Source: a virus. From it: a stretch of 54,759 bases of DNA. A model generated the notes under the pieces. The model worked only from the letters and a program-made list of their open reading frames with translations, made no database searches and was not told the DNA's origin. Position numbers and translations under genes: made by a program. The number at the start of each line of letters is the position of its first letter. Within the stretch, counting starts at the first letter, position 1. This document shows, in pieces, positions 6,607 through 54,759 of this stretch. The stretch spans positions 1 to 54,759 of IMG/VR virus record IMGVR_UViG_3300032083_000237; one strand, written 5' to 3'.

Positions 6607-7692
6607 ATGAAGTATACACATAAGACAAAACGAAAGGATGGTGGTACGAGCTGGATGTTCTTGCCACCTGATGATGCAGCTAGAGCTGGTGTTGTGTCTA
6701 CCATCACATTCAGAGATGGACGTACAGCTAGGCATGAGATACCAAAGTTAATTGCTTTGATTGACAGGTTTAGAAGGGGTGAGGTAGTAGTGGGTAGGTG
6801 TGGCCCAAGCTCTACCCTGAGCCAGCTACTCACCTTTTATCTCAACACAAAACACTTCAATTCTTTGTCGTTCAATACACAAAAGAACTACGAGTACAAT
6901 CTCAAAGCTATTTGTGCTGGTACTGTGTTTAATAAATCTATTGGCAATATGCCCCTTGACAGATTGAACACAAACATCTGTACTGAAATGTATGACCAGT
7001 GGGAAGCAGACGTAAGCACAGACCATGCCAATCAGTATGCAAGGTTGTTCTCTGTGCTGATCAATCACTGCCTCTCAATGGAGTTGATTATGTACAACCC
7101 CATGAAGAATGTGAAGAAGCGTAGCCACACCCCACGGTCAGTTGTATGGACTAACGAGCAGGTAGAACTATTCTTAGACACAGCGTTCAGCCAATACAAA
7201 TGGCGTAACGTGGGCTTGATTGTCCTATTAGCATACGAGTGGGGTCAACGTCCTGTAGACATACGCAACCTTACATGGGACAGCATAGACTTCACAAAGA
7301 AAGTTGTAACTATTACACAAACCAAACGTGGTGCTACCGTTGAGCTACCCATTGACGATCGTCTAATGGAAATGCTTGAGCAGCAGGATACTGACTGGGG
7401 TTGGCAAGAGTATGTAGTACCATGCCAGAGAGCCTCAGACAACGCTTATAGACCACTCTCTGTTGATCAGATGAACACCTTAGTAGGTGAGGTCAAGCAA
7501 GTCTGTGGCCTACCCTCAGACCTACGTGTAGGTGATCTAAGAAAGACAGCCATAGTAGAGATGATCAAAGGTGGGGCTGAAGCTATGCAAGTTATGTCTG
7601 TGACAGGTCACAAGAATATCTCGTCACTCAATCCGTACCTCAAGCACAATCTTGAGACAGCAATAGAAGCATTGGATAGGAGAAAGAGATGA
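6607..7692 (+). CDS. int: tyrosine recombinase / integrase, 361 aa
   Basis: Start ATG after GAAAGGT. An N-terminal arm-binding and SAM-like core-binding region (about 60-170) precedes the catalytic domain. Catalytic residues are R215 (GQRP), K240 (TKRG), R312 (DLRK), H335 (TGHK) and the nucleophile Y344 (NPYLKH). The first histidine of the HxxR box is replaced by G309, a deviation from many integrases. It should insert the phage genome at a chromosomal attB or resolve genome multimers. No excisionase is recognised next to it. Its stop overlaps the next gene (ATGA). Confidence 0.92.
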   Translation: MKYTHKTKRKDGGTSWMFLPPDDAARAGVVSTITFRDGRTARHEIPKLIALIDRFRRGEVVVGRCGPSSTLSQLLTFYLNTKHFNSLSFNTQKNYEYNLKAICAGTVFNKSIGNMPLDRLNTNICTEMYDQWEADVSTDHANQYARLFSVLINHCLSMELIMYNPMKNVKKRSHTPRSVVWTNEQVELFLDTAFSQYKWRNVGLIVLLAYEWGQRPVDIRNLTWDSIDFTKKVVTITQTKRGATVELPIDDRLMEMLEQQDTDWGWQEYVVPCQRASDNAYRPLSVDQMNTLVGEVKQVCGLPSDLRVGDLRKTAIVEMIKGGAEAMQVMSVTGHKNISSLNPYLKHNLETAIEALDRRKR

Positions 7693-7814
7693 AGAAACCT
7701 AACCCAATGGCTAAGGACTTGCGTCAACCTAAGTACAAGCCGCAGATCATACCAGATAAAAAGAAACCTACGATCCGCAAGGAGAAACACAAAGGAGATA
7801 AGGATGAAAACTAG
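7689..7814 (+). CDS. small basic protein, 41 aa
   Basis: ATG overlaps the integrase stop as ATGA. The product starts MKKPNPMAKDLRQPKYK and has about 14 Lys/Arg in 41 residues. Similar short basic proteins with a KDLRxPKYK core are, from memory, common in marine phages; their function is unknown. A nucleic-acid-binding or ribosome-associated role would fit the charge. It overlaps the following gene by 11 bases. Confidence 0.65.
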   Translation: MKKPNPMAKDLRQPKYKPQIIPDKKKPTIRKEKHKGDKDEN

Positions 7815-7968
7815 GGAAGAGTTGCTGCAATATATCGGAGCATTAAAACATGAAGCTGAAGTTTGGGAGTTGGAGGCTAAGGATTTGCTGGTCAAGAATC
7901 GGGAGTTGAAAAAAGATTTAGCTAAGGCTAAGGCTGAATTAAAACTTTGGATGGGGACAGGTGTATGA
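7804..7968 (+). CDS. small coiled-coil protein, 54 aa
   Basis: ATG at 7804 behind AAGGAGATAAGG, an excellent ribosome site. The product is a single long amphipathic helix with leucine heptads (about 6-48), ending WMGTGV. It is probably a dimerising coiled coil. No family recognised. Its stop overlaps the next start (ATGA), linking it to the membrane transporter-like gene. Confidence 0.6.
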   Translation: MKTREELLQYIGALKHEAEVWELEAKDLLVKNRELKKDLAKAKAELKLWMGTGV

Positions 7969-8396
7969 ACAACTATGTATATACAGCCATTGGACTTGTA
8001 GTCTTTTATGTAGGACTGAAAATGTTTAGTGGGGGTATGAAATCTATGGGTAACATAGACCACTTGACTTGGTTCTTGGGCAACCCAATCTATATGTTCT
8101 TTGGGTCAATCGCTATGACATTGGCATGGCAGAGTAGTAGCCTTAGTACTACAGCTATCATTGCCTTGGTTGCATCAGGGGTACTACCCCTACCCGCTGC
8201 TGTGGCTGCTGTGCTTGGGGCTAACATAGGTACGACAGGGACTATCTGGCTGGCTGGACTGTTAGTGTCTGACGGTATGCCAAGGGGTGACACCTTGCGT
8301 ATTGCATTGATACACACTGGTGTTAATCTTTTGATGGCACTAAGTCTGTTGCCATTTGTAAATCACATAGCTAAGTATGTTGGGAGAGTAGGATGA
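7965..8396 (+). CDS. half-length Na/Pi-cotransporter-like membrane protein, 143 aa
   Basis: The start is ATG 7965 (ATGA overlap), not the upstream in-frame ATG at 7947. The sequence matches one repeat of the Na/Pi cotransporter family (NptA/SLC34 type, PF02690): GLKMFSGGM, then QSSS at 56-59, then VLGANIGTT at 83-91, with about four or five membrane spans. Full transporters have two such inverted repeats; this has one, so it would need to pair. It would sit in the inner membrane. A role in phosphate uptake during infection is plausible but inferred; transport by a half unit is unproven. Confidence 0.8.
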   Translation: MNNYVYTAIGLVVFYVGLKMFSGGMKSMGNIDHLTWFLGNPIYMFFGSIAMTLAWQSSSLSTTAIIALVASGVLPLPAAVAAVLGANIGTTGTIWLAGLLVSDGMPRGDTLRIALIHTGVNLLMALSLLPFVNHIAKYVGRVG

Positions 8397-8472: not shown

Positions 8473-9165
8473 ATGTCACAGATTGAAGTAACATACATAG
8501 ACCACATGGGTAGTGACCTGAGTGTGGTCAATGCAGCACGTGTTAGCTTTGGTAAGACTAGTGAGATGGATATGAGTGACCAATGGGGGCCACCTAAACT
8601 GAAAGACAAGGACGCTAAACTAATCAAGTACTTAGCCAAGCATAAGCATATGTCACCCTTTGGTCATGCCTTTGCATCCTTCCATGTTAAGGCTCCTATC
8701 TTTGTAGCTAGGCAGTTAGTCAAGCATAAGTTTCTACGGTGGAATGAGATTAGTCGTAGGTATGTGGATGATGATCCTGAGTTTTATATGCCTGATCAGT
8801 GGCGTGGTAGGGCTAGTGACAAGAAGCAGGGTAGTGCTGGTACAGTTGATATAGATAAGTATTGGACAGAGAACTTTGATGATGATGGTGGTTGGAACCC
8901 AATGCCAGCGCTTGCTTACGAGGATGCTATGTGGTGTTACCTTGGTCTTCTTGAAGCAGGAGTATGCCCAGAGCAAGCACGTATGGTGTTGCCACAAAGC
9001 ACCATGACTGAATGGTATTGGTCAGGTAGTCTTGACGCCTTCATGGATATGTGCAATCTAAGATGTAAGCTTGACACACAGTACGAGACTAGGTTAGTTG
9101 CAGAATATATACTGAGTGAAATGATTAACTTATTTCCAGTATCAGTGGAGGCATTAAGAAGATGA
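8473..9165 (+). CDS. thyX: flavin-dependent thymidylate synthase ThyX
   Basis: Makes dTMP from dUMP with folate, FAD and NADPH, supplying thymidine for phage DNA. The length (230 aa) is normal for the family. The signature region at 84-97 reads KHKFLRWNEISRRY: the NE-S-RY half is intact, while the usual RHR is KHK. Other family elements are SPFGHAF at 61-67 and the C-terminal PEQARMVLP and STMTEWYWS segments that bind dUMP. It lies directly upstream of the replication module. Confidence 0.93.
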   Translation: MSQIEVTYIDHMGSDLSVVNAARVSFGKTSEMDMSDQWGPPKLKDKDAKLIKYLAKHKHMSPFGHAFASFHVKAPIFVARQLVKHKFLRWNEISRRYVDDDPEFYMPDQWRGRASDKKQGSAGTVDIDKYWTENFDDDGGWNPMPALAYEDAMWCYLGLLEAGVCPEQARMVLPQSTMTEWYWSGSLDAFMDMCNLRCKLDTQYETRLVAEYILSEMINLFPVSVEALRR

Positions 9166-9180
9166 AAGGTATAAAATTAT

Positions 9181-10782
9181 ATGGCAGATAACCCACACCT
9201 AGCGTGTCCGTTTGAAGACTGTGGTTCATCCGATGCCTTCAACTGGAATGATGATGGCTACGGCTTTTGTCATAGCTGCGGAGAGTCCTACCCCGCAAAG
9301 AAAAGCGTAGTGACATTTGATTGGGCGGCTCATGCCTACCCGATAAAGCAGAGGATAAATATTATGGATGTACCTGTAACGGGTAGTACCTTTAATAATA
9401 TCAGAGGGCTTAAGCCTGACGTGTGTCAGGTGTATGGCATCCAAGTACAGACAGGTGATGGTGGTGTGCCTGTCAGGTATGCGTACAAGTATCCACACAC
9501 GGTCAAGTATCGTGACTACAATGACAAGTCCAAGTCTTGGGTTAAGGACAGGGGCTTGGGTATGACCCATCTGTTTGGCCCTGACTTCAACTCAGGGTCA
9601 TCCACACGTATATACATCACCGAGGGTGAGTTTGATGCTGCGTCTCTCTACCAAATCCTTGGGGAGAAGTGGCCCGTCAAGTCCTTGCCTAGTGCATCTA
9701 TCGGTGAGAAGTTTATCAAGGCTAACCATGCCTACCTCAACTCTTTCAAAGAGGTGGTGTATGCAGGGGAGCTAGATGATGCAGGTAGACGTGCAGCAGA
9801 CAAACTATACGAGGCACTAGCAGATAAGTTTTGGTATGTCCCTATGTCTAAGCACAAGGATGCCAATGACTTTCTCACCAGTGGTGATGGGGATGACCTC
9901 AAGTGGGCTGCACTCAAACCACAACGGTACTCACCTGATAACTTCTTTTGCTCCGACGAGGAAGTAGAGGCAGCTATACTTAATGAGAATCCTTATGAGT
10001 ATGTACCCACAGGTCACACAGGTCTTGATGATAAGACTAGGGGCTTGGTAAAGGGTGGCATCACATTCCTTAAGGCACCACGTGGTACAGGTAAGACTGA
10101 GGTGATCCGTTACTTTGAGACAGGTCTACTCAAGACACCTGATGTACGCATTGCCTTGCTGCATATGGAAGAGATGAAGTCTACTACCTACCGTGCTATG
10201 GCTACCTATGAGTTGGGGGTCAACGTCCGTACAAAGGATGATGCTAGGGAAAACAATATCTCTGAGGACAAAGTGATAGAGGCAGCTAAGGATGCTACTA
10301 AGGGTGAACGTACTATTGTGTTTGAGATGCGATCACACGATGATCCCCTCAAGTTGCTTGAGTATATACGCCTAGCTGCTAGTGTGTATGGTGCTGGTTA
10401 TATCTTTATTGATCACGTCCAGCGTCTAGCTTACTTGTCTAGCTCAGGTGTTGATGGTGCTACCAGTACACTGACCACACTAGGTTCACGTGCAGCACAG
10501 CTTGCCAAAGAGTTAAACATTGGGGTGATCTTTATCTCTCAGGTCAATGATGATGGTCGTACTAAGTATGCAGCAGCACTAGAAGAAGAAGCAATCATCT
10601 GTATCAAGATTGAACGTGATGTTGAAACTGATGATGAGATTCTGCAGAATACTACCAACTTTATCATTGACAAGAACAGACCGTTTGCTAAGTTGGGTAA
10701 TGCAGGATCAGTATACTACGATCCAGACACTACACTATTAAGTGAAGAAACATACAATGAAAGGAGTGACATGGCAGCATGA
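9181..10782 (+). CDS. T7 gp4-like primase-helicase
   Basis: A bifunctional replication protein of 533 aa (T7 gp4 is 566). The zinc finger has C9, C14, C30 and C33. The TOPRIM primase core has the TEGE motif at 147-150 and a following GELDDAG. The DnaB-type helicase has Walker A PRGTGKT with K305, Walker B-like IFIDHVQ, and an SQVNDDG motif III region. It unwinds DNA 5' to 3' and lays RNA primers for the adjacent polymerase. It overlaps that gene by 4 bases (ATGA). Confidence 0.95.
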   Translation: MADNPHLACPFEDCGSSDAFNWNDDGYGFCHSCGESYPAKKSVVTFDWAAHAYPIKQRINIMDVPVTGSTFNNIRGLKPDVCQVYGIQVQTGDGGVPVRYAYKYPHTVKYRDYNDKSKSWVKDRGLGMTHLFGPDFNSGSSTRIYITEGEFDAASLYQILGEKWPVKSLPSASIGEKFIKANHAYLNSFKEVVYAGELDDAGRRAADKLYEALADKFWYVPMSKHKDANDFLTSGDGDDLKWAALKPQRYSPDNFFCSDEEVEAAILNENPYEYVPTGHTGLDDKTRGLVKGGITFLKAPRGTGKTEVIRYFETGLLKTPDVRIALLHMEEMKSTTYRAMATYELGVNVRTKDDARENNISEDKVIEAAKDATKGERTIVFEMRSHDDPLKLLEYIRLAASVYGAGYIFIDHVQRLAYLSSSGVDGATSTLTTLGSRAAQLAKELNIGVIFISQVNDDGRTKYAAALEEEAIICIKIERDVETDDEILQNTTNFIIDKNRPFAKLGNAGSVYYDPDTTLLSEETYNERSDMAA

Positions 10783-12620
10783 TTGTATTTGATATTGAGA
10801 CCGATGGTCTTAACCCATCAAAGATACATTGCCTTTCTTATACGAGTGACGGAGTAGAACACAATACACTCACCGACTACGAAGACATGAGACAATTACT
10901 ATCTAATCAAAAAGGTTTGATAGGTCATAACATCGTGCGTTATGATGTGCCTGTACTTGAACGTATCCTTGGTATCAAGGTTAAAGCACGTCTGTATGAC
11001 ACACTACCTATGTCTTGGGTTATGAACTATGATCGTACAAAACCACACGGTCTTGCCAGTTTTGGTGAAGACTTTGGGATACCCAAACCTGTTGTCACTG
11101 ATTGGTCTGAGCAACCTGTAGAAGTTTATGTCCATCGTTGTGAAGAAGATATCAAGATCAACTGGAAGCTCTGGCAGAATCTACTTAAGAGGTTCATGTT
11201 TGTGTACAAAGACAAGAAAAACCTTGACAAGTTCTTTGGTTATCTTTCGTTCAAGATGAACTGTGCGTATGCTGCAGAGCATGTTGGCTGGAAGCTTGAC
11301 GTTGATCTTGCTGAGGCTAGTGTTGACAAACTTAAGGAGCAACAAGATCACAAGGTCAAAGAGCTACGTGAGGTCATGCCTATGCGTAAGGTTATGTCTG
11401 TTAAGACAAAGCCAAAGGTATGCATCAAGAAAGATGGCTCTGTGTCTGCTCATGGTCAGCGTTGGTACAACTTATTAGCACAGCATGGGCTACCCAAGGA
11501 CTATGAGGGTGACGTAACTGTAGTCAAGGGTGTTGAAGATTCTAATCCTAACTCGCCTGAGCAGGTCAAGGATTGGCTCTTTGGTCTAGGTTGGGAGCCT
11601 TGTACTTACAAGTTTGATAAGAACAAAGAGACAGGAGAGGAAAAGAAGATACCACAAGTCCGTAAGAATGGTGAGCTTACTAGGTCCGTTCAGATCTTGA
11701 TTGATGACAATCCAGCAGTGGGTGTTCTTGATGGTCTGACTGTGATTCAACACAGGCTTGGCATCTTACACGGCTTCATACAGTGTCAAGACAATGGCTA
11801 TCTCAAAGCTGGTGTCAAAGGTCTTACCAATACTCTACGCTTCAAGCATGTCAAACCTTTGGTCAATCTGCCCGGTGTTGACAAGCCTTGGGGTAAAGAG
11901 ATACGAGGTTGTCTGATTGCACCAGAAGGTTACACCTTGTGTGGTGCTGACATGACGTCTCTTGAAGACACAACCAAGCGACACTATATGAAACCTTATG
12001 ACCCTGATTACGTAGAGGAAATGTCACAGGAAGGTTTTGATCCACACCTTGACCTTGCTAAACATGCTGGTGCTGTTACTCAGGATCAGATTGACAAGCA
12101 CAACTCAGGTGAGTCAAGCCTTAAGTCTTTACGTAAGAACTACAAGGTGGTGAACTACTCAGCCACCTATGGGGTAGGCGCAGCTAAACTGTCACGTGAG
12201 ACAGGTATGTCTGTGAGTGAAGCATCAGCTCTACTTGATGCCTACTGGGAACGTAACTGGGCTGTCAAACAGTTTGCCGAAGATCAAAAGATCAGAAAGA
12301 TCGACGGTGAAATGTGGGTACAGAATCCAGTGAGTAAGTTCTGGCACAACTTGCGATACGAAAAGGACGCCTTCTCTACTATCAATCAAAGTACGGGGGC
12401 TTACTGTTTCGACAAGTGGGTTGCACTATACCGTACCAAGAGGGGTAACATCATTGGACAATTCCATGATGAGAGTATTAACCTTGTTAAGAAGGGTGAC
12501 GAATCAGAGCATACAAAAACTTTGATTTGGGCCATTGAAAAACTTAACGAAGAACTTAAATTAAATGTTGACTTAGGCATTGACGTGCAGTATGGTCAAC
12601 GGTATAGTGAAATTCACTAA
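10779..12620 (+). CDS. polA: family A DNA polymerase with 3'-5' exonuclease
   Basis: Replicative polymerase, 613 aa. The N-terminal proofreading exonuclease has D5-x-E7 (FDIETDG) and a later DTL motif. The polymerase motifs are A (ADMTSLED, D391), B (R452, K456, Y460, Y464-G465) and C (HDES, H563-D564). Position 460 equals E. coli Pol I residue 762 and is tyrosine, as in T7. I see no DnaJ-type cysteine cluster in the middle region. It is probably partnered by the primase-helicase just upstream and the SSB just downstream. Confidence 0.95.
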   Translation: MIVFDIETDGLNPSKIHCLSYTSDGVEHNTLTDYEDMRQLLSNQKGLIGHNIVRYDVPVLERILGIKVKARLYDTLPMSWVMNYDRTKPHGLASFGEDFGIPKPVVTDWSEQPVEVYVHRCEEDIKINWKLWQNLLKRFMFVYKDKKNLDKFFGYLSFKMNCAYAAEHVGWKLDVDLAEASVDKLKEQQDHKVKELREVMPMRKVMSVKTKPKVCIKKDGSVSAHGQRWYNLLAQHGLPKDYEGDVTVVKGVEDSNPNSPEQVKDWLFGLGWEPCTYKFDKNKETGEEKKIPQVRKNGELTRSVQILIDDNPAVGVLDGLTVIQHRLGILHGFIQCQDNGYLKAGVKGLTNTLRFKHVKPLVNLPGVDKPWGKEIRGCLIAPEGYTLCGADMTSLEDTTKRHYMKPYDPDYVEEMSQEGFDPHLDLAKHAGAVTQDQIDKHNSGESSLKSLRKNYKVVNYSATYGVGAAKLSRETGMSVSEASALLDAYWERNWAVKQFAEDQKIRKIDGEMWVQNPVSKFWHNLRYEKDAFSTINQSTGAYCFDKWVALYRTKRGNIIGQFHDESINLVKKGDESEHTKTLIWAIEKLNEELKLNVDLGIDVQYGQRYSEIH

Positions 12621-17258: not shown

Positions 17259-17308
17259 AGTAACCACCTGAGTATGTGGCTAAACTGCTCCAAACAAGGA
17301 GAACTAAA

Positions 17309-17533
17309 ATGATTTGGGTTTACGTAGTAGTTATGGCAATGGGTTCAGCCCCTGCAAAAGAAGATAAGTTTATAGTACATGCAACTAACCTTGCTTTTTT
17401 AACCGAAGAGTCTTGCCAAGAGTGGCGAGAGTATGATATGCTACGCTTGTACAACACAAGACCAAATGAAAATGCCAAGGCTGTAAGCCAGTGTTTTTCT
17501 CTACCTCTATTTAAACAAGGAACTAAATCTTAA
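17309..17533 (+). CDS. small exported or membrane-anchored protein, 74 aa
   Basis: ATG 17309 is preferred because AAGGAGAA lies just before it; an in-frame GTG at 17276 lacks this. The N-terminus MIWVYVVVMAMGSAPA looks like a signal peptide or anchor, followed by a soluble part with two cysteines (SCQEW and SQCFS) that could form a disulfide in the periplasm. Unknown family. Its stop overlaps the next ATG. Confidence 0.65.
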   Translation: MIWVYVVVMAMGSAPAKEDKFIVHATNLAFLTEESCQEWREYDMLRLYNTRPNENAKAVSQCFSLPLFKQGTKS

Positions 17534-17997
17534 TGGCTGTAAGAAAACGTTTTAACAGAGCATTGTATGAAGCATATGATGCTGCTGCTAAGGACAAACT
17601 TGTAACTTTACTTGAGCAAAAAGGACACACCATTGTAAACACAGAAGAAAACTATTATGTAGATGTAGTGTCACAGAAAGATGACTACACTTACTTCAAT
17701 GAGGCAGAGGTAAAGGTAGCATGGGATGGTGACTGGCCTACACATTGGGCAGAGATTAGGATTCCAGAAAGGAAGCAGAGATTATTAGACAAGTATGATG
17801 GTGCTAATGGTGTACTAAATTTCTATATCTTCCGTAAAGATATGAAGCAATGCTGGCGCATCAAGGATACTTGCTTGACTAAAGAGAGTCTCAAAGAAGC
17901 TAAGGGTAGATACATACAGAAAGGTGAGCAGTTCTTCCACATCCCCTATACTAACGCAGAACTAATTGTACTAGAGAAAGAGAACAACAATGGCTAA
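17533..17997 (+). CDS. PD-(D/E)xK-like hypothetical protein, 154 aa
   Basis: ATG overlaps the upstream stop (TAATG). The pattern YYVDVV...NEAEVKVAW (D then E-x-K) followed by a basic helix recalls restriction-endonuclease-like folds. A hydrophobic strand VLNFYIFRKD follows. Similar proteins occur beside DUF3310 genes in phages, from memory. Nuclease activity is unproven; it could be a packaging or repair accessory protein. Confidence 0.6.
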   Translation: MAVRKRFNRALYEAYDAAAKDKLVTLLEQKGHTIVNTEENYYVDVVSQKDDYTYFNEAEVKVAWDGDWPTHWAEIRIPERKQRLLDKYDGANGVLNFYIFRKDMKQCWRIKDTCLTKESLKEAKGRYIQKGEQFFHIPYTNAELIVLEKENNNG

Positions 17998-18238
17998 ATG
18001 GAAAGAGTTGGCTGTGGATATGGTAGAACATCCACCCCATTATAATGCAGCAGGTATTGAATGTATTGATGCTATGCAAGCTATGGCTGAGGATGCACCT
18101 GTCAGCGCACATGAAGCATACTGCTGGCAAAACTCTTTCAAGTATCTTTGGCGATGGCCTTACAAGAATGGCTTAGAAGACTTGAAGAAAGCACGTTGGT
18201 ACTTAGATAGACTTATCAGTGAGGTAGAAAAAGAATGA
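17990..18238 (+). CDS. DUF3310 protein, 82 aa
   Basis: Recognised by HPPHYNAAGIECIDAMQ (about 14-30), then KYLWRWPYKNGLEDLKKARWYL (about 51-72), the two hallmarks of the DUF3310 / PF11753 family found in many tailed phages near nucleotide metabolism genes. The biochemical role is not established. It overlaps its neighbours by 8 and 4 bases. Confidence 0.88.
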   Translation: MAKWKELAVDMVEHPPHYNAAGIECIDAMQAMAEDAPVSAHEAYCWQNSFKYLWRWPYKNGLEDLKKARWYLDRLISEVEKE

Positions 18239-23982: not shown

Positions 23983-24867
23983 TTATTCCTCATACAATGA
24001 AGTGCCAGATAACTTCATAAAGTTATAGGCATCATTTCTTTCAGCTTTCTTAAGCATACCCGGCCCATTAACTATCCGAGTAACTTTATCTGTATTGGAA
24101 AAGTCTTTTACTGCAGGTCTTACATTTGTTTCCCAGAACCAGAAAGAAGTATCTGCTGCAGTTTCTTTATCTAAAACTAAATCAGGATCATCGGCCAAAC
24201 CTGCGTAGCCAAGAGCTTTACCAGCAGCTTCATAGTTATCTTTATGAGTTAGCTGCAAAAATCCTCTTCCTTTGTACCTCTTACCACCACCATATCTATC
24301 TTTACCGGGTCCGTACTCTTCTAAAGTTTTAAAGTAATCTGTTTCTATTGCAACCTGCGCCATAAATTGTGCAAGTTCTGGGCCTTCATAGCCACGATCC
24401 TTAGCTTTTTCAAATATATAACTTTGTAACTCTTTTTGTTTTTTATTAAAGGTAGGTACAACATTTTCAAAACGTGGAAACTTACCCCCACGTTTTACAG
24501 GAGGTTTAACCTGACCCAAAGCATCTCCAGTTTCATTATAAAATGCCTCATCAGCATCAGCTTCAATAGAACTTTTTAGTTCAGCATTTTGTCTACGCAC
24601 TTGGTTATAGGCTTTGTCTAACATAGATACATTATCTTCGTTAGTCTCAACACCTGATTTTATTCTTGGACTAACAAGGCCGGGAAGTCTGGACCTATCC
24701 ATTTGTATTTGTTTAACATCAGAGTAAGTTCTTTTATTTTGCAAACGAAGCTCACCTTCATCAGCAGCAGAAGGTTTTCTAGTTCTATCATTAGACATAT
24801 AATCAAAAACTTCACCTAATGTATTTCTAGCACCTTCTAAAAGTTTTTGATAACTTAACGATCCCAT
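23983..24867 (-). CDS. virion GH19-type muralytic protein, 294 aa
   Basis: The N-terminal 130 residues are a helical virion-linking region. Residues 140-290 form a GH19 chitinase-like lysozyme domain: FMAQVAIETDYF with catalytic E175, a second acidic pair E183-E184, and RGFLQLTHKDNY at 201-212. It should cut peptidoglycan glycan strands during genome entry. Position among ejection proteins fits a tail- or core-borne lysin rather than the release endolysin, which is the M15 gene at 52072-52524. Confidence 0.85.
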   Translation of the reverse strand: MGSLSYQKLLEGARNTLGEVFDYMSNDRTRKPSAADEGELRLQNKRTYSDVKQIQMDRSRLPGLVSPRIKSGVETNEDNVSMLDKAYNQVRRQNAELKSSIEADADEAFYNETGDALGQVKPPVKRGGKFPRFENVVPTFNKKQKELQSYIFEKAKDRGYEGPELAQFMAQVAIETDYFKTLEEYGPGKDRYGGGKRYKGRGFLQLTHKDNYEAAGKALGYAGLADDPDLVLDKETAADTSFWFWETNVRPAVKDFSNTDKVTRIVNGPGMLKKAERNDAYNFMKLSGTSLYEE

Positions 24868-46411: not shown

Positions 46412-47836
46412 TTAATAACCAAACGTTGGGTCGCTTGCTTGAAAACCTGATCGTTGTGTTGCAGGGTCAAAATCAAACAAACTGCTTCGTGGTCTTGTCA
46501 TAACCCCATACCTAATTGCATCATACAGGTGGTCTTCTGAGTGTGTGTCTACGTCTTCAGGGTTATTCTTATCCAGAGGTAGTGCTGGTATTTGTGATAT
46601 AGTATTAGTACAAGTATTAAAGAATACTAGCCGTGGTTCTTCAGTAAACTCGTCTACTTGTAACCGTCTATGTATTTCGTTTTTACCTGCTACCCTTGAA
46701 CCTCTGGACCTGTCAGCAGGTCTCCACCTACAGCCCTTCATAATCATTTGTTCAGCTAGACTTGGGCCAGTGTCTCCACGTTTATGCCAGAGAGATGAGT
46801 CAAGTACTCCGTAGCGTATCTTCTCTCCATTCTCTGCTTCTAGTATCATATCAGCTAGGTCAGTAGCTATAACCTTTGAGCAATACATTTCCCGATAAAC
46901 TATCAGTTGTTCATCAGGAGCTACAGCAAACCAAACAACCCCTGAGTAAGAACCGTATCCGTAGTCACATGCTCTAAACCTTGCCCAGCCACTGGGTATT
47001 TCAAAAGGTTCTATTACGTGTATCTGTCTATTCCACTCAGGAAAAGCAGCACCTTCATTTACATCCCAGTTACCTTCAAGTAGTTGCTTACGTTGATGCT
47101 CTGGTAGTGATAATAAGTTAGCTTCATACAGACCATCATCAGCTAAGTACGGGTTATCAAATAAAGTAGCAGGAATAAACCTGCGTTTAAACAGTGGTTG
47201 ACCCTCTTTTGAGTGACCTTTAGGCCAAGCAATAACCTCTCCTGTTTCCATATCAGTAGCATCAAAGCTAGTATTATGTGGAGCTGGGTCTACAAAAGTT
47301 TTCTTAACCCATTGATGCCCACTTCCGCCGGGGTTAGTAGTTCCCCTTTGATATAAACCTAGACCACTATTCTTAGTAGTACGTAGGCGTGACCTCATAT
47401 AGTTCCAAGGATAAGGGCTAGGCCATTGTGTAAGTTCATCAAAACCAATCCAGTTAAAAGCTTGTCCTTGGTATCTTTGTACATCATCATCCCTATCTAG
47501 ATATGAAAGCCAAAGAGTAGCACCGCTTGGAGCTACCCACGTCTTATCACGTTCCATAAACTTAATCCCGGGGATTGCTCTTGGGTAGAGCTGTTTGGAG
47601 ACTGAGATAAGTTCTCTGAGTTCTTCTGTGCTTCTCCGTACCAACAGCATAGAAGATAGTGGATTATTAAAATACCTAACAGGATCGGCCAGCATAGCAA
47701 AAGACTTACCACCACCAGCCGCCCCACCATATAGTACCTCTTGTTCTGCTGCTGAAAGAAAATCTGTCTGAGGGCCGGGATTAGGCTCAAAGATAACGTC
47801 TTGAGCTTTTTCTACATCAATCGGCTCTGGCTTCAC
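46412..47836 (-). CDS. terL: terminase large subunit
   Basis: Packages DNA into the head. Numbered from GTG 47836 (474 aa): Walker A GGAAGGGKS at 37-45, Walker B WIGFDELTQ near 129-137, and nuclease residues in CDYGYGSYSG, GVLDSSLW and HLYDAIRYG. An upstream TTG at 47968 keeps the frame open but would overlap the neighbour by 152 bases, so the GTG giving a 20-base overlap is preferred; its ribosome site is weak, so the start is uncertain. Confidence 0.9.
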   Translation of the reverse strand: MKPEPIDVEKAQDVIFEPNPGPQTDFLSAAEQEVLYGGAAGGGKSFAMLADPVRYFNNPLSSMLLVRRSTEELRELISVSKQLYPRAIPGIKFMERDKTWVAPSGATLWLSYLDRDDDVQRYQGQAFNWIGFDELTQWPSPYPWNYMRSRLRTTKNSGLGLYQRGTTNPGGSGHQWVKKTFVDPAPHNTSFDATDMETGEVIAWPKGHSKEGQPLFKRRFIPATLFDNPYLADDGLYEANLLSLPEHQRKQLLEGNWDVNEGAAFPEWNRQIHVIEPFEIPSGWARFRACDYGYGSYSGVVWFAVAPDEQLIVYREMYCSKVIATDLADMILEAENGEKIRYGVLDSSLWHKRGDTGPSLAEQMIMKGCRWRPADRSRGSRVAGKNEIHRRLQVDEFTEEPRLVFFNTCTNTISQIPALPLDKNNPEDVDTHSEDHLYDAIRYGVMTRPRSSLFDFDPATQRSGFQASDPTFGY

Positions 47837-48245
47837 TCTCGCTGGAACTTGTTGAAGCTCTGGCTCCGATACGATTTCTTTCGAGGGTTTCCGCTTTTGC
47901 CGCCGCTTCTTTGTAGCGTTCAGCGTAATAGCGTTGCGTTGAAGCTTCTGCTTTACGTTTTCGTTCAAGTTTAACTCTCTTCATTAGACCTACGTGAGAG
48001 ATGTATCTACCTGACTTCTCACTCAACCAATTAGCTACATCTCTGTAGCTGTATTGCTTTAGATACTTCTTAGCTTCTTCTAAAGCTTCTAGCTCTACTG
48101 GGATTGGTAGCAGTATATCATCATCTTCAGGGTCTTGTCTATAGCCAAATGGTACAACTCTGCCTACTCTAACGACAGACAACCATTCATACTCACCATC
48201 CACTAGCTCTGGCTCAGGGAGCTTCCAAGTTTTATTAACTTTCAT
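47817..48245 (-). CDS. conserved protein between TerS and TerL, 142 aa
   Basis: A beta domain (EYEWLSVVRVGRVVPFGYRQDPEDDDILLPIP) is followed by an HTH-like segment YSYRDVANWLSEKSGRYISHVGLMKRVK and a basic, Ala/Glu-rich tail. This SGRxISHxGLxKR element resembles the DNA-binding tail of resolvases and recurs in terminase operons. It could be a packaging recognition partner. It overlaps both neighbours. Confidence 0.7.
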   Translation of the reverse strand: MKVNKTWKLPEPELVDGEYEWLSVVRVGRVVPFGYRQDPEDDDILLPIPVELEALEEAKKYLKQYSYRDVANWLSEKSGRYISHVGLMKRVKLERKRKAEASTQRYYAERYKEAAAKAETLERNRIGARASTSSSESEARAD

Positions 48246-51880: not shown

Positions 51881-52072
51881 CTATTTTATATTTATTTTCT
51901 TAGGAACGCAATAGGCAATTGCACGATCTTCTAGTGCTATGCCATGTGTACTGTATCGTCTTACTACTTCTCTAGCGTAGTAGTTGCAATGTTCTATGTT
52001 ATCAAAGACCATCTCGTATTCTATAAGCTCTCTATCTATGCCAAGATAGATTAAGAGAACGAAGGTAAACAT
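51881..52072 (-). CDS. small exported protein, 63 aa
   Basis: Starts in a TAATG overlap with the endopeptidase. N-terminal hydrophobic segment MFTFVLLIYLGI, then a soluble part with two cysteines (HCNYYA and YCVPKK). Similar short proteins occur near marine phage lysis genes. Could be an outer-face lysis helper; inference. Confidence 0.6.
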   Translation of the reverse strand: MFTFVLLIYLGIDRELIEYEMVFDNIEHCNYYAREVVRRYSTHGIALEDRAIAYCVPKKINIK

Positions 52073-52524
52073 TACATCATTTCAAAGTGTGGTGCATCAA
52101 TGAACGGTCTGCGACCTTGAGAACGACGAAGGTCTACATAGTCATTCATTGCATCTTCCATAGAACCCTCATAAGAAGCAATGTCACCTACACTCCATGC
52201 AGCTCCCCACTTAATAGCTACACCTTTCTTACGTGCAGCTTCAGCCATAGCATCAGCCAGCTCATCATATTTATTTAATGCCCATGTAATATTAGGACCA
52301 ATGTAGGCCACTAGGTCTACTGCACGTCCCTCTAGGTGTTTACTCTTCATGGTCTGACTAGCACCACTAGCCACAAGCTTCTCTTGTTCTTCTACGGTAC
52401 GCATACCACAGGTAACACCAAAGTCTACTTTAGTGCGTTTAATAGCTTCATTCACTACTTGTACTAGCTGGGGGTTTACTCCCTCTAGTCTACCTTTACT
52501 ACGATTAGATAGTTGAAACGTCAT
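52072..52524 (-). CDS. M15-family endolysin peptidase, 150 aa
   Basis: L-alanyl-D-glutamate / D-Ala carboxypeptidase-type zinc enzyme that cuts peptidoglycan peptides for lysis. Motifs: SKHLEGRAVDL with H63 and D70, then DAPHFE with H146 and acidic D143. A TCGMRT segment precedes them. No signal peptide, so it needs the nearby holin to reach the wall. Confidence 0.92.
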   Translation of the reverse strand: MTFQLSNRSKGRLEGVNPQLVQVVNEAIKRTKVDFGVTCGMRTVEEQEKLVASGASQTMKSKHLEGRAVDLVAYIGPNITWALNKYDELADAMAEAARKKGVAIKWGAAWSVGDIASYEGSMEDAMNDYVDLRRSQGRRPFIDAPHFEMM

Positions 52525-54422: not shown

Positions 54423-54759
54423 TGTAGTTACCAAGTGTATTTGACCCCCCGCTGTCATTGGGTGTATACGTATACGGACACCCCCCGTATGGCCCATGCC
54501 CCCCATGCTGTATACAACGGTATACACAAGGTTTTCCTCAGTTAATGTGACACTTTAAGCTGTAACTCCTTGATATCATTGTGTTTTCTATACAATGTAG
54601 GATTATTCAGTACACATAATCGGGATTTTTCCTTGTGTTTTCAGGGGGTTACTGTTTGTGAGTAAGGCCATGCACTATACACTACCCATAATAACATTAT
54701 GTCTGCACATATACACCCACCCCATTATATGTCTTATACATTATCTCTTATACATTATC
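54423..54759. repeat. right copy of imperfect terminal direct repeat
   Basis: Second copy of 1-337, same length, about 97% identical. It ends exactly at the end of the second 14-bp iteron (54746-54759). No gene inside. Confidence 0.85.

Follow-up and report, generated by a model that had tools for sequence, protein, structure and literature searches.

Transporters with inverted repeats are thought to derive from single-repeat ancestors, possibly antiparallel dimers. To our knowledge, few living single-repeat forms exist.

Among viruses, a PF02690 gene has already been published for eight metagenomic genomes of the HMO-2011 type, and its product is described there as a sodium-dependent phosphate transport protein, i.e. 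an ordinary Na/Pi cotransporter (Qin et al. 2022, PMC9038755). That gene belongs to the same Pfam family and to marine podoviruses closely related to the virus studied here; half size, a missing partner and other phage types are not mentioned in the accessible portion of that article. A description of the half-size form and its spread was not found in the open-access literature. The window analysed in this work is the whole 54,759-nucleotide stretch of IMG/VR record IMGVR_UViG_3300032083_000237. An earlier note on this DNA had pointed to a half-size Na/Pi cotransporter-like gene in a phage; such a gene is indeed present, but its occurrence in a phage is not new, as PF02690 is published for the HMO-2011 type (PMC9038755).

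Results

The open reading frame starts with ATG at position 7965, ends with a stop codon at 8394-8396 and encodes a product of 143 aa according to the ORF listing (Table 1). The Pfam profile Na_Pi_cotrans (PF02690) matched this product in one stretch only, with 56.5 bits (E=4e-15) against a curated cut-off of 29.1 bits. Both QSSS and GANIGTT are also present, and the protein, hereafter called the half transporter, contains one real Na/Pi repeat. The start codon is regarded as correctly called because ATG and GTG are exchanged at this same codon among near relatives, an AAAGG-like motif is conserved at the corresponding position in relatives, and the median dN/dS among near relatives is 0.06, indicating strong purifying selection. 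PHROGs holds no family for the half transporter.

Table 1. Features at and around the half-transporter gene of the window.
Feature	Position	Strand	Evidence or remark
Tyrosine integrase, upstream	6607..7692	+	PF00589 6e-20
54-aa charged, coiled-coil-like ORF, directly upstream	7804..7968	+	ORF listing; stop overlaps half-transporter start
Leader with ribosome-binding-site-like GGATGGGGA ahead of ATG	7947..7964	+	Sequence
Single-repeat Na/Pi cotransporter homologue, 143 aa	7965..8396	+	PF02690 profile match, viral relatives, dN/dS
QSSS motif, residues 56-59, tip of predicted re-entrant hairpin	8130..8141	+	36-representative alignment, SLC34A2a alignment
GANIGTT motif, residues 85-91	8217..8237	+	SLC34A2a alignment, 36-representative alignment
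ThyX thymidylate synthase, next downstream gene	8473..9165	+	PF02511 2e-45

A second repeat was searched for by scanning all six-frame ORFs of the window with RU1, RU2 and phage profiles. None was found in the chain or elsewhere in the genome, in agreement with the earlier note, and PF02690 matched the whole record once. The record ends (1-337 and 54423-54759) form a 337-bp direct repeat that is 97.9% identical without gaps. The record, listed as linear in IMG/VR, appears to be a complete or nearly complete genome of about 54.4 kb, and because of the end repeats the missing half does not lie beyond its edge. All 25 virus contigs examined for copy number (27-177 kb) contained exactly one PF02690 copy, and no oppositely oriented paralogue was located beside it, some of these records being partial. 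Given the single copy and the lack of a constant neighbour across contexts, no dedicated partner gene exists. The protein would therefore require either self-association or a host protein; the earlier note had proposed dimerisation, possibly in opposite orientations, or inhibition of the host transporter.

At least 590 relatives of the half transporter were counted in IMG/VR, where each of two viral scans confirmed more than 580. All of the approximately 160 that were examined are single-repeat proteins ending 87-89 residues past QSSS, with a distance of 98 in one case. QSSS, G85, N87, G89-T90-T91-G92-T93, H117 and N121 were invariant in 36 representatives, with G-N-x-G-T-T unchanged throughout; the conservation of QSSS, on which the earlier proposal had been made to depend, was thus borne out, as was a wide recurrence of the gene in phages. 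In a tree of repeats, the phage proteins formed one clade with a support of 100/100, within which the T4-like members were a supported subclade. The position of this clade in the tree, where long branches meet, favoured neither an ancestral phage half nor one cut from RU2. Searches with tblastn detected the half transporter in none of the phage records and no credible relative in cultured phages and plasmids.

The TerL protein of the window is 77% identical to that of Roseobacter phage CRP-13, and its DNA polymerase is closest to that of Roseobacter phage CRP-6 (56%). A Cobavirus-type replication module combined with HMO-2011-type packaging defines the CRP-9 type (PMC8528129), to which the window was assigned because a CRP-6-like DNA polymerase occurs with a CRP-13-like TerL. 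The chimera consists of primase-helicase and DNA polymerase genes of Cobavirus type at 9181-12620 and a terminase of HMO-2011 type at 46412-47968. A roseobacter is the likely host. The half transporter is not annotated in CRP-6 and CRP-13 (the latter examined to 22 kb).

At least four phage backgrounds carry the gene, i.e. the CRP-9 type (window), the HMO-2011 type, a portal-linked group and T4-like viruses of up to 177 kb, always as a single copy and with no partner constant across them. The cluster of the 54-aa charged ORF recurred in 35 of 161 loci, in podovirus-type groups only, and ThyX was a neighbour in 55 of these 161 loci. Podovirus-type neighbours comprise integrase, ThyX and helicase-primase genes, and another group has portal genes. 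In T4-like viruses the neighbours are IMPDH, IscU-like (a label that we assigned from the sequence), aaRS-like, NolU-like carbamoyltransferase, and PnrA-like or tryptophan-halogenase genes. A gene for a PnrA-like nucleoside-binding protein lies close to the half transporter in 14 loci, T4-like where typed; one of them (L086:4823-6073) encodes a PnrA/Bmp-type protein (PF02608 3e-42), and the 13 others, in T4-like marine viruses, are alike. IMPDH/GMP reductase genes are likewise found nearby in some T4-like viruses, and together with the PnrA/Bmp-type protein they possibly form a viral nucleoside-scavenging set in T4-like marine viruses. In a 134-kb virus, the gene immediately upstream of the half transporter is tryptophan-halogenase-like (L086:1419-2975; PF04820 3e-95).

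PF02690 was present in 30 of 151 Chloroflexota genomes, including one virus-like contig. Every cellular frame measured 355-721 aa, and the only half-size frame was the one on the virus-like contig. A scan of 84,980 species, restricted to close relatives, gave a single match, which lay on a Chloroflexi MAG contig of virus-like character. This contig (L082; PAAV01000031.1), although binned in the MAG, reads as a T4-like virus contig and carries the only PF02690 gene of that MAG. Within this cellular survey of Chloroflexota, the half-size form looks phage-specific; the likely host phylum is Pseudomonadota. A full-size phage version was considered and rejected, as the four viral contigs matching the GANIGTTVT pattern all proved to encode NaPi-PhoU proteins with two repeats, like those of cells.

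Among proteins of solved structure, SLC34A2a chains (9z60 and others) were closest to the half transporter. In phmmer, the half transporter matched both repeats of the SLC34A2a chain (E=1e-17; 34.5 and 38.0 bits), and its QSSS aligned without gaps with the QSSS of either repeat; the alignment to SLC34 RU1 spans residues 24 to 131. Of the bacterial repeats, RU2 was matched better (1.1e-18, full length) than RU1 (1.3e-11). Since both repeats are matched in SLC34A2a and in bacterial proteins, one chain could stand for either half. Scores against NCBIfam models fell short of the whole-protein cut-offs (TIGR00704, 48.5 of 210.1 bits; NF037997, 36.3 of 50 bits; TIGR01013, 28.9 of 306 bits). The two-repeat family is characterized by two inverted repeats per chain, of which the half transporter has one, and by QSSS and the Na3-site threonines, which it retains as invariant Q56-S59, T90 and T93. 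By profile the half transporter is thus a member of the superfamily, placed outside the two-repeat cotransporter family because it lacks the defining feature of that family, two repeats per chain. In a homology model of NaPi-IIa, the Na3 site is formed by Q417, S418, S419, T451 and T454 (PMC6325988). These residues correspond without gaps to Q56, S57, S58, T90 and T93 of the half transporter, all of which are invariant in the 36 representatives; S447 of NaPi-IIa corresponds to A86.

An AlphaFold2 monomer model was obtained with pLDDT 78 and pTM 0.65. A structure search of the PDB with this middling model gave no clear match, SLC34 chains being missing among the fold matches; the best-ranked entry, from a gut/sorbitol transporter, was within noise. 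The same model was used to define the sides for charge counts. In 117 distinct proteins, the numbers of K+R were 1-2 in the side-A loop, 2-3 in the side-B loops and 2 in the tail. With sides taken from the predicted topology, the resulting bias was +2 in 53 proteins, +3 in 35 and +4 in 29, and the T4-like clade showed +3 to +4. Published values are -2 to +1 for dual-topology proteins and 6-7 for fixed antiparallel pairs (PMC3962082), so that the half transporter lies between both ranges and, judged on the predicted topology, a dual topology would be allowed. Cellular RU1 is strongly one-sided in charge, and RU2 of NaPi-PhoU proteins mostly leans to the opposite side.

Phosphate is a putative substrate by family membership only. 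Gene context does not support it, since Pho boxes near the half transporter were no more frequent than by chance, and among 14 carrier records, some of them partial, one had PhoH and none had the PstS-like PF12849. In CRP-13 and CRP-6, which have no annotated half transporter, PhoH is annotated. There, ribonucleotide reductase is followed by glutaredoxin and then PhoH; at 17276-18238 of the window PhoH is missing, as it is from 13 of the 14 carriers. The half transporter and PhoH possibly replace one another. Taken together, the PhoH and PstS counts, the lack of a Pho box and the presence of PhoH in CRP-13 and CRP-6 argue weakly against a Pho-regulon role. For YjbB, a relative from bacteria, the annotation is that of a putative phosphate exporter.

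Discussion

Our tentative explanation is that the half transporter is a phage-specific single-repeat homo-oligomer, most likely an antiparallel dimer, which imports an anion, probably phosphate, with Na+. Copies of the protein would assemble with each other, two of them being inserted in opposite orientations, and together would restore the two-QSSS, two-NIGT binding site of a normal two-repeat transporter. During infection, the complex would carry the anion with Na+ into the host. Given one copy, no partner and retention of the site residues, a complete site would be reached most simply by self-assembly, and the PnrA-like gene nearby in 14 loci fits an uptake role. It is possible, albeit rather doubtful, that a working antiparallel homodimer made from one 143-residue chain has persisted for a long time and been passed between unrelated ocean phages. 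The charge bias of the T4-like members, however, is more in line with a single orientation.

A bias that is consistently non-zero, directed towards the C-terminal side in the predicted topology, would also suit a subunit of fixed orientation that binds to a two-repeat Na/Pi transporter of the host, or takes the place of one of its repeats, and thereby activates, redirects or inhibits it. The better match to RU2 and the lack of a partner in the phage itself agree with such a subunit. We nevertheless consider it unlikely: the gene is carried by very different phages, which would require one host partner common to all hosts; PF02690 is present in only a minority of the Chloroflexota genomes surveyed, even with the virus-like contig counted; and an inhibitor need not keep all Na+-site residues invariant. 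It is similarly improbable that a homo-oligomeric transporter of the same architecture has another job, either phosphate export, as in the annotation of YjbB, or transport of another anion. Pho genes and a Pho box are lacking around the half transporter, and its neighbours (ThyX and helicase/primase in podovirus-type viruses, IMPDH/GMP reductase or PnrA-like genes in some T4-like ones) could be taken to indicate such a job, but the motifs found invariant belong to the ion and phosphate site of SLC34, and export would bring no obvious gain to phages in poor water.

A non-transport membrane protein that reuses the fold, be it holin-like, a membrane organiser or a host-takeover protein, is quite unlikely. 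Small size, three to four hydrophobic segments, a single copy and a variable context are compatible with it; however, every ion- and substrate-site motif is among the invariant residues, and the gene sits among replication or metabolism genes while endolysin-like genes of the window are located elsewhere (23983-24867 and 52072-52524). A decaying fragment, truncation or pseudogene of a full-size gene, or an assembly artefact, for which nothing apart from the missing half speaks, is refuted by the nearly identical ends of about 160 relatives, the low dN/dS, the conserved start and the fully supported phage clade.

A self-assembling single-repeat transporter would be a rare example of a normally two-repeat transporter built with one repeat, and a conserved single-repeat Na/Pi protein would be a minimal model system in which to study the SLC34 fold. 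As a gene annotated as a routine auxiliary gene for phosphate uptake would then be built differently, its published function should not be assumed.

NaPi-II/SLC34 and the bacterial two-repeat transporters (TIGR01013, TIGR00704, NF037997) share with the phage protein the homologous repeat with QSSS, NIGT(T/S) and the H..(F/V)N helix, but possess two inverted repeats per chain instead of one. The repeats of NaPi-PhoU proteins, YjbB of E. coli among them, are likewise homologous to the half transporter; these proteins have two repeats and a C-terminal PhoU-like domain, whereas the phage protein has one repeat and no such domain. EmrE/SMR, CrcB/Fluc and DUF606 proteins are unrelated to it in sequence, yet may share the principle by which a short chain forms an antiparallel homodimer, if the half transporter does assemble in this way. 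The E. coli examples of dual topology have a charge bias of -2 to +1 (PMC3962082), compared to +2 to +4 in the half transporter.
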